Shown piece after piece: positions 2,939-63,998 of a DNA stretch of 64,000 nt. A model generated the notes under the pieces. It ran no database searches and was not told the origin of the DNA. It worked only from the letters and a program-made list of their open reading frames with translations. Within the stretch, counting starts at the first letter, position 1, and each line of letters begins with the position of its first letter. The position numbers and the translations under genes are program-made. The stretch lies in contig CAMWNT010000001.1 of NCBI GenBank assembly GCA_947175695.1, positions 1 through 64,000 of the forward strand, read 5' to 3'. Origin of the DNA: an uncultured Porphyromonadaceae bacterium. GTDB lineage: Bacteria > Bacteroidota > Bacteroidia > Bacteroidales > Muribaculaceae.

Positions 2939-5062
2939 ATGGACATGAGAAAATTATACGCATTGGCAGCCCTGGCAGCCATACCTGTCGCAGCTCTTGC
3001 ACGTCCGGCCACTCCCGAAATCGGACGCCACACCAATCCCGACGGCCAAGTGATCGAATACCGTGTACACGGCAACGAACACTTCCATTATATCACCACC
3101 GCCGACAACTCCAGCATCCTCGAGCTCAACGGAAAGACAATGAGCCCCATGATGCGCAACGGCGTCACCCTCACTCCGACCGAAGCAACTCTCTCAATGC
3201 TTCGCGCCGAACTCCCCGAAGACCCCGCATGCTCCCACACAGCTGCATCATCCGGCAAAGTCAACCGCATGGCCGCCCTTGATGGCAACGGCCGCTCCAC
3301 ATATCCGACTATCGGCGAAATCCACGCCTGCGTCATCCTCCTCGAATATCCCGACACCCCGTTCTCCTTCGACAACCCCAAAGAGCTTTACGAACGCCTC
3401 TGCAACGAAAAAGGATACTCCGATTTCCAGTCAAAAGGCTCAGCCAAAGACTACTATGAAGCTTGCTCCGGAGGTAAGTTCTCGCCCACATTCGACGTCT
3501 ACGGCCCCATTCGCCTCGAACACGAAGCAAAATGGTATGTAGGCGACGACGACCCGACAATCAACGGCTACCACCACAACGCCCGCTTCGGAGTCGCTAT
3601 CAAAGAAGCACTTGAAGCGCTTGACCCCGACGTTGACTTCTCCCAATACGACTACGACAACAACGGCGAAATCGACAGCATATTCTTCTACTACTCAGGC
3701 TACGGACAGGCCGACCTTATCGCCGTCGACCCCGTCGCCGCCGCTCTCACAGTATGGCCCCACCAGGCCGACTTCGCCCGCTACACAACCGAATATTCCG
3801 GCACAATAGGCCTCGACCCGATCTACGTCGACGGCAAACGCATGGGCCCCTACGCATGCTCCAACGAGCTCAACGCCTCGGCCAAAATCCCCGCCGACCA
3901 AAAGCCATGGCTCGACGGAATCGGCGCATTCTGCCACGAATACGGCCATGTGCTCGGCCTCCCCGACCTCTACGACGTCTCAAACTCCGGCACTCCCACC
4001 CCCGGATCATACACCGTCATGGACACCGGCTCATACAACAGCCTCTCCACTTGCCCGCCCCTCTATTCAGCCTACGAAAAATGGGTCTGCAACTGGCTTG
4101 AATACACCGACCCCGTCGACAACACCGCCTACACCCTCAACCCCCAGACCGGCGCCGACGCCAATGCACTCCGACTCCGTGTGCCACGCCCCGGCAACCG
4201 ATACTACGGCGAATACTACGTGCTCGAATGCCGCGACAACACTTCATGGGACGCCAGCCTCCCCAGCAACGGCCTCCTCATCTGGCGCATCAACTACTCC
4301 AACAACGCATGGACATGGAACAACGTCAATGTCAACGGCACTCCCAACATTGAGCTCATCGGCCCCTCGTCGGCCACAACCCTCAAAGGTTGGCCCGGAC
4401 TCGACGGCCTCGCCACATACATCAGCCCTGCAAGCGCTAAACTCACGCCCGCTTGTCTCGGCGGAAAAACGCCCCTCGACTGCGTCATCACCAACATCGC
4501 TTTCGACTACGACAACCCCGAAGGTTGCCCCGTGACCCTCGAATACAACGTCTATGGCGAAAACAACGCCACCACCTTGCTCCACAGCAACGTCGAAAAC
4601 GACCAGGCCGCACGCACCCTCACATTCCACTGGGATGAAGTCGAAGGAGCCACCAACTACCAGCTGACCGTCAAACGCCGCGACAGCAGCGGACGCGAAA
4701 TGGTCGTAGGCGACCTTGACGAAACCCCCGTCGGCAACGTCAATCAATACCTCCTGCGCAACATTTCCGCCCTCCAGTGGAGCCAGACATTCACGGTCTA
4801 CGTACGCCCCGTCATCGGCATCCCCTCCACCGTGACAAGCAACGTGCTGACATTTGTCCCCGCCGACCTCCCCGAATACAACTCCGTAGCGGAAATCGAC
4901 CTTGACAACGTCATCATCCGTGGCGGCAAAGGCGAGATCATCGCTCCCGAAGGCGCACGCGTATTCAACCTCAGCGGCGTCGAGACCGGACTGACCGGAC
5001 TCCCCGCAGGCGTCTACATCGTGACCCTCAACGGAGCCTCGGCAAAGGTTGTCGTAAAATAA
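2939..5062 (+). CDS. M6 family (InhA-like) secreted metalloprotease
   Basis: Signal peptide; zinc motif HEYGHVLGLPDLYD; C-terminal ARVFNLSGVETGLTGLPAGVYIVTLNGASAKVVVK tail. Confidence 0.85.
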   Translation: MDMRKLYALAALAAIPVAALARPATPEIGRHTNPDGQVIEYRVHGNEHFHYITTADNSSILELNGKTMSPMMRNGVTLTPTEATLSMLRAELPEDPACSHTAASSGKVNRMAALDGNGRSTYPTIGEIHACVILLEYPDTPFSFDNPKELYERLCNEKGYSDFQSKGSAKDYYEACSGGKFSPTFDVYGPIRLEHEAKWYVGDDDPTINGYHHNARFGVAIKEALEALDPDVDFSQYDYDNNGEIDSIFFYYSGYGQADLIAVDPVAAALTVWPHQADFARYTTEYSGTIGLDPIYVDGKRMGPYACSNELNASAKIPADQKPWLDGIGAFCHEYGHVLGLPDLYDVSNSGTPTPGSYTVMDTGSYNSLSTCPPLYSAYEKWVCNWLEYTDPVDNTAYTLNPQTGADANALRLRVPRPGNRYYGEYYVLECRDNTSWDASLPSNGLLIWRINYSNNAWTWNNVNVNGTPNIELIGPSSATTLKGWPGLDGLATYISPASAKLTPACLGGKTPLDCVITNIAFDYDNPEGCPVTLEYNVYGENNATTLLHSNVENDQAARTLTFHWDEVEGATNYQLTVKRRDSSGREMVVGDLDETPVGNVNQYLLRNISALQWSQTFTVYVRPVIGIPSTVTSNVLTFVPADLPEYNSVAEIDLDNVIIRGGKGEIIAPEGARVFNLSGVETGLTGLPAGVYIVTLNGASAKVVVK

Positions 5063-10694: not shown

Positions 10695-10903
10695 GGGTTA
10701 GGTTTTAGACTTTAGGTTTTAGGTTTTAGGCCTATCAAGATAAATCCCGATTAATCATGCTAAATCATGATTAATCGGGATTATTCGTAATGGGGAGTAA
10801 AGTCCTTAAAGTCCCTAAAGCCCTTAGAGTTCTTAAAGTCCTTAAAGTCCTTAAAGTCCCTAAAACCTAAAACCTAATTCCTAAAACCTAAAACCTAATA
10901 AAA
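10690..10903. repeat. Composite intergenic repeat: GGTTTTAGG array, palindrome, 9-bp AGTCCTTAA array, CCTAAAACC array
   Basis: Seven 9-bp units at 10801-10863; AATCCCGATTAATCATG-ctaaat-CATGATTAATCGGGATT; flanking arrays are mutually reverse complementary. Confidence 0.9.
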
Positions 10904-16764: not shown

Positions 16765-16796
16765 CAAAATTACTAAAAATTTCGCGCATAGGCAAA
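16765..16796 (-). promoter_or_regulatory. Candidate lysS promoter (proximal copy)
   Basis: Minus strand TTTG(CC) then ~20 nt then TAATTTTG (TAnnTTTG); identical copy at 16852-16883. Confidence 0.6.
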
Positions 16797-16897
16797 TAGC
16801 GCATGTCGGCCAAAGGCCGGTGCGCGGTGCCGGAGGCAATTTGACCTATCGCAAAATTACTAAAAATTTCGCGCATAGGCAAATAGCGCATGTCGGC
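16765..16897. repeat. Two perfect 46-bp direct repeats (16765-16810, 16852-16897), period 87 bp
   Basis: caaaattactaaaaatttcgcgcataggcaaatagcgcatgtcggc is identical in both copies. Confidence 0.95.
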
Positions 16898-17717: not shown

Positions 17718-17770
17718 ATCAAGTTGTTTATGTCCGAATCCGGCGTTTGGTCAGGCATCAGAGGCCACTA

Positions 17771-17881
17771 AGCTCCTAAAGTCATTAAAGCCCTTAGAGT
17801 CCTTAAAGACCCTAACCCCTCCCATTCATGATTAATCATGATAACCCTAACGCCTAACACCTAAAACCTAACACCTAAAAC
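17771..17881. repeat. Second composite intergenic repeat (AGTCCTTAA-type 9-bp units, TCATGATTAATCATGA palindrome, CCTAAAA repeats)
   Basis: Five 9-bp units at 17771-17815; modules shared with 10690-10903. Confidence 0.85.
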
Positions 17882-28075: not shown

Positions 28076-30481
28076 TCATTTCATAATCGTCAGCTTCTCG
28101 GCTTTGCCGCCTGCGACTCTGACGTAGATTCCGCTTTCGGTCGGACGCCCCGACAGGCGGACGCCCTGGAGCGTATACCATTCAGCTTCAGCCGAAGCGT
28201 CGACCGCTTTCAGCGCAACGCCCGACACGAGCGACAGATCGAGTCGCTCGGGCGATGTCCATTCCGATGCGGAATAGGATTCCTTATCGGCCGGCACAGC
28301 CTGGATGCGATAGTCGTAGATGCCGCCGCTCTCGAGCCCGCTGACGGTATAGGAATTGCCTGTGATGCCGGAGAATGTCAGCTTCTTGGCCGCCGCGCGA
28401 CGGTCGGCGGGAAGATATTCCTTCACTGATGCGTCGCCGCTATAGATGTCGACACTGCGGATATAGAGACGCTTTTTCTTGGCAAGGGTCTCGAAACGCA
28501 CTTTGAAAAGGGTTGATTCAGGCAGATCGAACACAACATTGTATGTCGCGTAGCTACCCGTCAGCGTCACCTGGCGGCTGGCGATGTTGTTTCCCTTGGA
28601 GTCGACAAGACACACATTGACCTGACTGCCGTCGTTGCTGTAGTATTTCGCATCAAACTCTACAGTCACGCAGTCGTGGCCTTCAGCCACGGCATATTCG
28701 GCCGAAGTCAGTTTGCCAAGCTGGTTGCCGGAGCCGAGGCGTATGCCCTCTTCAGCCTCTTCGACGCCGGTATAGCCCTCGCCGATCCAGCCATGTGAAG
28801 TGGAATTGAATAGCGTGCTGCCGAGAGCGATATATGCATTTTCAACATAAGGCATCAGTTCGATAGTGTAGGAAGCCGTGTTCGGATCGCTTCCCTCCCA
28901 TTTGATCAGAGCCGATGTCGAGCTGAGGACAGTGTGGGAAGGATTCTGCGGAGTTTCGACTGCCGGAAGCGGTGCTTTCATCACCCAGAAGGAAATCGTG
29001 GAATCGTCGTTGCGAGTGATTTCAGTGACGGGCTTCGACATGTAGCCTCCCGTATTGACCTTTGCGGCCGGAGTGGAGGAGTCGGTCAGTTCGGTGGCAT
29101 AGCTCTGCGGCCAGAGATCGGTCAGCAGACTCGCTTCGTTGATATAGTAATACTTCTCGCCATAATATGTCTCGACATCGAGCAGGAGGTTGTTGTCGGC
29201 GGGGATGACGGTGGCACGCTGGAGGTCGTAGTCATTGACCTCGTTGAGCTCCCATGCCGATGCGTCATATGTGAAGTGGGTGATAAGCAAGCCTTCGGCG
29301 GGCATATACGCGTCCCAACCCTGGCGTTTGCGGTTTTCGAGAATATAATATTCGTCGGAATCGGCGTCGTTGGTCAGGCGCACAGCCATGTCGGTCGCAG
29401 CCGATCCGAGGTTCATGGGAGTCAGGAGATAGTTGGTGTTCTCCTCCCCTTCGGGGATATTGATCCAGCTCATGAACTCTTTTTCATAAGCCGAATAGCC
29501 GATGGGGGTGTAGCAGTCGTTGTTGTAGCTGCCGGTGTCCATCAGCGACCATACGCCCATTCCGAAGTGCGGGCCGTATTGAGTGTCGTAGAAGTCGGGC
29601 AGACCGAGGCAGTGAGAGAATTCGTGGCAGAATGTGCCGACGCCATCGATGCGGGAGAGGTCGGATCCGTTGAGTTCGTTGAACACTGCGAAGAGGTCGA
29701 CCTTGGTGTTGTCGAGAGTAAGCGATTTGCCATAATCCGAAGAATCGAGACTCCACTGGCAGGGCCATACTGCGTCTTCGCAATCATCATCGTAGGAGGA
29801 TGCCTCGCCGTCGCCGGCATAGAGCACGATGACCACGTCGCATTCGCCGTCGCCGTCGTTGTCGTAGACGCTGAAGTCGATCGAGGAATCAAGGCCGAGG
29901 CAACCTTCGGCCACCATTCGGCCGACCCCCTTGTCGTAGCCTTCGTAGTCATTGCCGCCGTAGTCGGAGCGTTTGCCGGTCAGAGTGATCGGCCCGTAGA
30001 CATCGAATTCGGGAGTGAATGCGCCGTTCGACTGGTCGGTGAAGTATTGACGCGCGGAAGTGGAGCCGGATTCGAAGAAGCTGTTGAATGTGGCGAGCGG
30101 ATCGGCGTCTTTGAATTTATAGTCGGAGTATTGCACCAACAGCACCGGCACACGCGGCGAACCGACATGGGGCACCTGGCTCTGATTCTCCGAAGCCGCA
30201 CGCTGGGGAAGATTACGACGGCCGCGACGACGCGCGCCTTCGGCCTTGATTTTTGCGGCTTCCGCCTCATCTACGGGAAGTATCCAGCCGTCGGCGTTGC
30301 GGACACACTGTTGGCCGTCGGCATTGACGATGCGATGATAAAACTCATCACCGATGATGTTTACGCGGATTTCGGAGCCATCAGGCTGCGTCAGTGTGCG
30401 CCAGCCCGGTCGCGCGGGCACGGCCCAGGAAGAGATCACGGCTGCCGAAGCAAGCAATGCAATGGGTAGTTTTTTAGTCAT
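28076..30481 (-). CDS. Second M6 family secreted metalloprotease
   Basis: HEFSHCLGLPDFYD; signal peptide; fibronectin-III-like region; C-terminal WYTLQGVRLSGRPTESGIYVRVAGGKAEKLTIMK. Confidence 0.87.
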   Translation of the reverse strand: MTKKLPIALLASAAVISSWAVPARPGWRTLTQPDGSEIRVNIIGDEFYHRIVNADGQQCVRNADGWILPVDEAEAAKIKAEGARRRGRRNLPQRAASENQSQVPHVGSPRVPVLLVQYSDYKFKDADPLATFNSFFESGSTSARQYFTDQSNGAFTPEFDVYGPITLTGKRSDYGGNDYEGYDKGVGRMVAEGCLGLDSSIDFSVYDNDGDGECDVVIVLYAGDGEASSYDDDCEDAVWPCQWSLDSSDYGKSLTLDNTKVDLFAVFNELNGSDLSRIDGVGTFCHEFSHCLGLPDFYDTQYGPHFGMGVWSLMDTGSYNNDCYTPIGYSAYEKEFMSWINIPEGEENTNYLLTPMNLGSAATDMAVRLTNDADSDEYYILENRKRQGWDAYMPAEGLLITHFTYDASAWELNEVNDYDLQRATVIPADNNLLLDVETYYGEKYYYINEASLLTDLWPQSYATELTDSSTPAAKVNTGGYMSKPVTEITRNDDSTISFWVMKAPLPAVETPQNPSHTVLSSTSALIKWEGSDPNTASYTIELMPYVENAYIALGSTLFNSTSHGWIGEGYTGVEEAEEGIRLGSGNQLGKLTSAEYAVAEGHDCVTVEFDAKYYSNDGSQVNVCLVDSKGNNIASRQVTLTGSYATYNVVFDLPESTLFKVRFETLAKKKRLYIRSVDIYSGDASVKEYLPADRRAAAKKLTFSGITGNSYTVSGLESGGIYDYRIQAVPADKESYSASEWTSPERLDLSLVSGVALKAVDASAEAEWYTLQGVRLSGRPTESGIYVRVAGGKAEKLTIMK

Positions 30482-59074: not shown

Positions 59075-59249
59075 TTAAAGATGGAGGGGTTCGGGCAAAC
59101 CATTCGACAGATGACGTGTTATAGTAGTAAAGAAAGATGAAAATCGTTTCATGATGTTAGGTTAGTTCGAAAAAGTATTATGGAAAAACTTTGCGTCCGC
59201 GATCCCCTGTGAAGGGCATCGCGGACGTTTTCGTTATGCTTGATCCTCG
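59075..59249 (-). repeat. Copy 1 of inverted-pair element (hairpin + 63-nt core + MKRFSSFF mini-ORF)
   Basis: Reverse complement closely matches 63833-63998. Confidence 0.92.
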
Positions 59250-59257
59250 GGTTGGAC

Positions 59258-63792: not shown

Positions 63793-63832
63793 GATCTCGA
63801 ATTAGCCCAATAAGTCCAATTAGCCTCACACT

Positions 63833-63998
63833 CGAGGCTCAAGCATAACGAAAACGTCCGCTATGCCCTTCACAGGGAATAGCGGACGTAAAGTTTTTCC
63901 ATAATACTTTTTCGAACTAACCTAACATCATGAAACGATTTTCATCTTTCTTCGATAATATAACAGTGTCGGCTCGAAAATGGTTTATGGCCGAATAA
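63833..63998 (+). repeat. Copy 2 of inverted-pair element
   Basis: Hairpin 63854-63889, identical 63-nt core, mini-ORF MKRFSSFFDNITVSARKWFMAE at 63930-63998. Confidence 0.92.

Follow-up and report, generated by a model that had tools for sequence, protein, structure and literature searches.

In Bacteroides, base-pairing small RNAs (sRNAs) encoded in multiple copies have recently been described as a layer of gene control, and the driver of their coordinated expression is an open question. The FopS family of B. thetaiotaomicron comprises 14 paralogous sRNAs of ~65-70 nt, each consisting of a single-stranded seed and a terminator, which are expressed from sigma-ABfr promoters, bind the start regions of susC mRNAs and are themselves bound and antagonised by the RRM protein RbpB; an unknown regulator acting during bile stress has been posited by the same authors (PMC11697453). 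A single-copy relative, GibS (RF04182), is ~145 nt long and carries a second seed, R2, and a PM2 promoter (PMC7366714). Our searches of an open-access library found no sRNA work on gut Muribaculaceae, the family to which the sequence analyzed here belongs.

The window, that is, the whole stretch of 64,000 nt under analysis, contains an inverted pair of repeats with arms at 59117-59252 and 63830-63965 (136 nt, 93% complementary). The sequence-only reading had reported this pair together with a hairpin in which G:C in one copy becomes T:A in the other, and both were found as claimed; the two hairpins were much more stable than shuffled sequences, with folding z values of -5.6 and -6.7. The repeat is thus real, although two copies proved too few: BLAST of the unit against its own genome yielded five (C1:59k, C1:63.9k, C1:70.1k, C7:32.7k and C74:4.9k), in surroundings as unlike as rnpA/GT2, korC-like/frr, yidD/mutS and others (gene names assigned by eye). 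The earlier suggestion of a small structured RNA was correct as to kind but wrong as to strand, because the gene lies on the plus strand for copy 1 and on the minus strand for copy 2. On this strand, opposite to that of the first reading, each copy of what we denote type 1 shows the same order of promoter, fixed stretch, hairpin and T-rich tail. In copy 1 (plus strand), the -35 box AAACC at 59097..59101 (family consensus GAAC[C/T], with AAC near-invariant) is followed 15 nt later by the -10 box TGTTATA at 59117..59123. The predicted sRNA of ~104 nt at 59130..59233, its start placed 6-8 nt past the -10 box and its end after the T tract, includes the near-invariant seed region TCGTTTCATGATGTTAGGTTAGTT (59144..59167), which is single-stranded in that conserved pairing is not predicted, and a terminator hairpin (59194..59227) with a GTGA (GNRA) tetraloop at 59209-59212, then TTTT at 59228-59231. 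Copy 2 (minus strand) has its -35 box AAACC at 63982..63986 (GGTTT on the plus strand) and, 16 nt away, the -10 box TGTTATA at 63959..63965 (TATAACA on the plus strand); the sRNA is predicted at 63848..63953, with the 5' end inferred near 63953 and the 3' end near 63848, and contains the seed region (complement of AACTAACCTAACATCATGAAACGA) at 63915..63938 and the terminator hairpin, again with a GTGA tetraloop, at 63854..63889. What had been described as a diverging tail that still aligns indeed does so, and holds the -35 box of the opposite-strand promoter (AAACC / GGTTT).

Several other repeats were seen elsewhere in the window: degenerate 9-base tandem repeats at 10782-10881 and 17752-17824 (AAGTCCTTA and relatives), together with inverted arms of CCTAAAACCTAA at 10691-10730/10859-10898, a 46-nt direct repeat in two identical copies 87 bases apart (16765-16810 and 16852-16897), and a pair of 65-nt inverted repeats, 77% complementary and 25.6 kb apart (3912-3976 / 29585-29649).

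The near-invariant single-stranded stretch of the type 1 sRNA, the family to which the window copies belong, reads UCGUUUCAUGAUGUUAGGUUAGUU. Part of the set of 153 copies was fetched with an exact 22-mer, and the invariance of the seed was therefore judged on copies fetched by BLAST or by a covariance model, among which it is also near complete. The covariation claimed from two copies extends to an alignment of 52 sequences, for which the score was 0.872; shuffles scored 0.249, and slid controls no more than 0.204. RNAalifold predicts only one helix from this alignment, with two-sided changes at 14/14 pairs and 93.8% of the cells pairing. Because the alignment fold shows no conserved pairing 5' of the hairpin, the seed is taken to be single-stranded. 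A 5' stem suspected by eye, UUUCAUGAU/AUUAUGGAAA, received no support from this fold, and its 3' arm is absent in some copies. Five copies (L061, L126, L146, L153 and L156) carry an additional hairpin at the 5' end, starting where transcription is expected to start, which supports the inferred start of the sRNA. Of 141 copies, 120 have a strict GNRA tetraloop at the terminator and ~17 others have GNRA with one extra base, whereas only 4 of 34 other terminator-like hairpins in the loci of the same genomes have a GNRA loop. Since this loop is legible as GNRA on the sRNA strand only, it is evidence for that strand. Counts of T tracts against A tracts did not separate the strands; the GNRA loop and the promoter did. 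In certain copies, such as c5, the T tract is weak.

Type 1 copies behave as autonomous genes, as follows from three observations: 151 of 153 overlap no open reading frame (ORF) of at least 80 codons, the 130 copies with both neighbours occur in all four combinations of neighbour orientation (50/31/25/24), and tandem arrays are built of complete type 1 genes. Judged from anatomy, strand and covariation at the sequence level, the type 1 element is a predicted stand-alone sRNA gene, its RNA ~85-105 nt long. On the spread of orientations we rejected a cis-acting leader or attenuator, and the earlier observation that each copy begins just past the stop codon of a same-strand gene is a local accident. 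If the strand first read carried a structured 5' leader or a leader-peptide module, with a translated MKRF... peptide, this would account for the preservation of ATGAAACGA in nearly every copy. However, across 152 copies the ORF varies from 2 to more than 30 codons, its length not being kept, and the spacer to the promoter box is spread over three frames (19/36/54). Moreover, the conserved promoter of the sRNA, on the other strand, sits within this ORF, the GNRA loops are legible on that other strand only, and the downstream neighbours occur in either orientation, so that we find a leader hardly credible. In the MKRF mini-ORF one sees the seed stretch in antisense, and it looks like the start of a gene because the sRNA is complementary to AUGAAA start regions (seed complement, AACUAACCUAACAUCAUGAAACGA).

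Type 1 copies were detected in 36 of 36 genomes of the same genus in our first set, with 1-14 copies each, some of them in tandem, at unrelated intergenic places, and in none of 24 members of the order from other families. Among the carriers are two cultured members of the genus, Isolate-036 and Isolate-037 (Harlan). A covariance model built from type 1 (R1) and run against 297 genomes of the family strongly matched every listed genome of the same genus; matches in other genera were weak, but several were real and exposed a second sRNA, type 2. No Rfam family matched type 1 at threshold, and a known family was accordingly rejected; BTnc231 weakly resembles type 2 only. The multiplication of copies at non-orthologous sites, together with a complete type 1 copy (L178) on an IMG/VR contig classed as viral, is what one would expect of a non-autonomous mobile element or of a repeat without cellular function. 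Against this stand the promoter and terminator that bound each unit, the covarying stem and fixed seed, which imply selection on an RNA, the presence of a copy in every same-genus genome searched, and its retention, in single-copy genomes, beside one ECF sigma gene (6/7). The mobile element considered in the earlier reading also lacks coding capacity, and an unsystematic look at the edges noticed no conserved ends outside the promoter-to-terminator gene. We regard this alternative as very improbable.

The promoter of type 1, GAACY-N15/16-TGTTATAAT, is of the ECF-sigma type. A score of at least 10 out of 12 for GAACY-N-TGTTATA was reached by 131 of 153 copies compared to 9 of 153 shuffled ones, and a housekeeping TAnnTTTG box was present within 60 nt upstream of only 2 of the 153. 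An ortholog of one ECF sigma gene (orthologs mostly 65-75% identical) lies less than 1 kb from 23 of 171 distinct type 1 copies, in three arrangements. The link is most apparent in genomes with a sole copy: among the seven for which the copy locus was fetched, single-copy status being assigned by search with the R1 model, the copy adjoins the ECF sigma gene in six (G090, G158, G304, G325, G341 and G344), G023 being the exception. In G090, a genome of the same genus, the distance is 275 nt, and the sigma gene has 192 codons and encodes the domains Sigma70_r2 and r4. Neither the gene nor an ortholog was found in the stretches fetched around the five copies of the window genome. As far as the compared sequences go, the promoter class and its linkage to one ECF sigma gene are established. 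Between the genes of G090, the promoter pattern occurs 14 times compared to 2 for the reversed pattern. Among the downstream genes are those for trigger factor, a probable FKBP-type isomerase, a rubrerythrin-like protein and a lipoprotein (assigned by eye except for trigger factor), which suggests a stress regulon. In the window genome, an exact GAACY probe returned four matches, at least three of them within ORFs; the sRNA copies, with -35 boxes that read nAAC[C/A], were not among them. Also beside the ECF sigma gene of G090 (L154, G090:C18:83389-84366) are genes for a protein with a single TM segment and for a periplasmic one, the latter matching the heavy-metal-resistance domain PF13801 below threshold; the two are perhaps the sensing module of the sigma factor.

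The type 2 sRNA of Muribaculaceae (TTATGTTAGGTTTGT), found through the R1 model with E values of about 1e-4, has the core AUGUUAGGUUUGUU and is present in 84 of the 297 genomes of the family, spread over 13 of its 30 genera; the window genome encodes it on the minus strand at G000:C22:14005-14088 (L217). It matched no Rfam family at threshold, the similarity to BTnc231 being weak. With type 1 it has in common the core AUGUUAGGUU[A/U]GUU and the GNRA terminator, whereas it differs in its greater length, its usually single copy per genome, its housekeeping TAnnTTTG promoter and an additional upstream AGGGUUAG block.

Canonical FopS genes coexist with both. Using the Rfam GibS model, we read them in a Bacteroides-like genome (G484) as GTGTTTTTCAT[A/G]GTATTAGATTTAAGG..., each after TAnnTTTG. 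The window genome has two in tandem on the minus strand (L569; G000:C38:1668-1761 and 1917-2064), G090 also has two, and others occur in several more Bacteroidales families (L571-L580). FopS had previously been reported for Bacteroidaceae, and its range is hereby extended to other families of the order, with the window genome among them. The type 1 seed UUUCAUGAUGUUAGGUU matches FopS UUUCAUGGUAUUAGAUU at 14 of 17 positions, the mismatches all being A/G, a likeness equalled by 15 of 5000 shuffles. FopS loci were the top matches of the R1 model in a small set (E 0.009-0.05), the best two alignments being in the register of the seed and the third out of register. In the reverse direction, a FopS covariance model (model R2) matched no tested type 1 copy with default filters and, when run unfiltered, gave no credible in-register match to the tested type 1 loci. 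The seed likeness and the weak R1 matches, taken with the failure of the FopS model, indicate that type 1 is likely a divergent relative of FopS and not a member; it would then be a divergent branch of a superfamily with the R1 seed, sharing ancestry with FopS.

Targets were sought in G090, assembled from stretches that cover 1.83 of about 2.1 Mb. In its sense 5' UTRs, AACTAACC occurs 12 times compared to 1.8 expected and once in antisense, and AACTAACCT, which is complementary to the seed AGGUUAGUU, was counted 9 times compared to 0.55 expected (13 genome-wide). Because AACTAACC ranks only 68th among the enriched 8-mers of these UTRs, the enrichment alone is moderate evidence. Other strongly enriched 8-mers, among them TCATCAAC, TGATGGTT and GTTGATAG, suggest that there are more families of intergenic repeats or more regulatory motifs. 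When the 3' half of the seed was shuffled 60 times with the start-codon half fixed, the real seed gave stronger duplexes with the start regions of G090 at ranks 5, 10 and 20, where it was equalled by 0, 0 and 1 of the 60 shuffles, respectively. The provisional candidates include urocanate hydratase, NuoN, a glutamine synthetase, a Dcp-like peptidase, a type I asparaginase and an epimerase-family dehydrogenase, which would point to amino-acid and nitrogen metabolism and not to SusC; no SusC bias was seen among the targets in G090, where only two SusC-like genes were recognised. In the window genome, both AACTAACCT sites outside the sRNAs lie just upstream of an ATG, and one belongs to the ortholog of the epimerase gene. 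Across the genus this site is mostly not kept, being exact only in G090, in the window genome and in one further genome among the 22 inspected, so that a single conserved target was rejected. Pooled loci of the same genus and an outgroup showed no excess of the seed complement.

Such weak conservation of targets between species, the many copies and tandem arrays, and the unpaired invariant motif would also suit a sponge or protein decoy, whose GUUAGGUUAG copies would mainly soak up an RNA-binding protein or a different RNA, for example the type 2 sRNA or its targets, instead of directly repressing mRNAs; RbpB, after all, binds FopS RNAs (PMC11697453). However, the seed matches AUGAAA start contexts, shuffled versions of its 3' half pair less well with start regions than the real one, and two RNA classes with clearly unlike surroundings keep related seeds. 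Furthermore, no RRM protein (RRM_1, PF00076) was found in the 88%-complete genome of the window, the control, Bacteroides ihuae, being positive. We consider a sponge unlikely.

Our preferred reading, which we hold to be quite probable, is that type 1 is an ECF-sigma-driven, FopS-like branch of trans-acting sRNAs that would act at translation starts. The linked ECF sigma factor would recognise GAACY-N15/16-TGTTATAAT and, under a stress signal, transcribe the type 1 siblings. Near-identical siblings would be co-produced from scattered sites, so that their outputs add up and copy number sets dose and speed. The seed, antisense to start-codon regions (complement CUAACCUAACAUCAUGAAA; seed/target pair AGGUUAGUU/AACUAACCU), would most probably pair with a target mRNA across its 5' UTR and start codon and block the entry of ribosomes, a mode of repression that would parallel that of FopS and GibS in Bacteroides, where start-codon pairing blocks translation. 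We further lean towards the view that, in this genus of Muribaculaceae, an ECF sigma factor controls a regulon of multicopy FopS-like sRNAs that is the counterpart in Bacteroidota of sigma-E with MicA and RybB, and that it arose when an sRNA with the R1 seed, no longer under its housekeeping promoter, came to be linked to the sigma gene, altered its seed and then spread as siblings, canonical FopS staying in place. A FopS-related branch whose copies have a common ECF promoter and adjoin a specific sigma gene would make the question of coordinated expression testable in gut Muribaculaceae.

FopS and type 1 have the same architecture. Both are multicopy (14 in B. thetaiotaomicron; 1-14 for type 1, with 5 in the window genome) and mostly intergenic, and both occur on a phage contig; both combine an unpaired conserved 5' seed with a variable Rho-independent terminator hairpin as the only structure; and both have a seed antisense to AUG-AAA start regions, with the core UUUCAUG-R-U-R-UUAG-R-UU in common (14/17). 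They also differ. FopS starts with GUGUUUUUCAU[A/G]GUAUUAGAUUUAAGG, whereas the type 1 seed is extended to GUUAGGUUAGUU and the RNA is longer; the R1' seed of FopS, GUGUUUUUCAU[A/G]GUAUUAGAUUU, is not found in type 1, the 14/17 likeness being confined to UUUCAUGRURUUAGRUU; the promoter is sigma-ABfr (TAnnTTTG) in FopS but ECF-type in type 1; and FopS targets susC, which was not seen for type 1 in G090. GibS likewise combines a related R1 seed at its 5' end with a long stretch of unpaired 5' sequence and a terminator, and is set apart by its single copy, length of ~145 nt, R2 seed and PM2 promoter; the best score of the GibS model (RF04182) at a window copy was 20.4 bits against a gathering threshold of 115. 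In enterobacteria, an ECF sigma factor, sigma-E, drives the base-pairing sRNAs MicA and RybB. These have no sequence relation to type 1, and the parallel drawn here does not extend to Hfq dependence or OMP targeting; the layout, that of an ECF-driven base-pairing sRNA, is the one proposed here for type 1.
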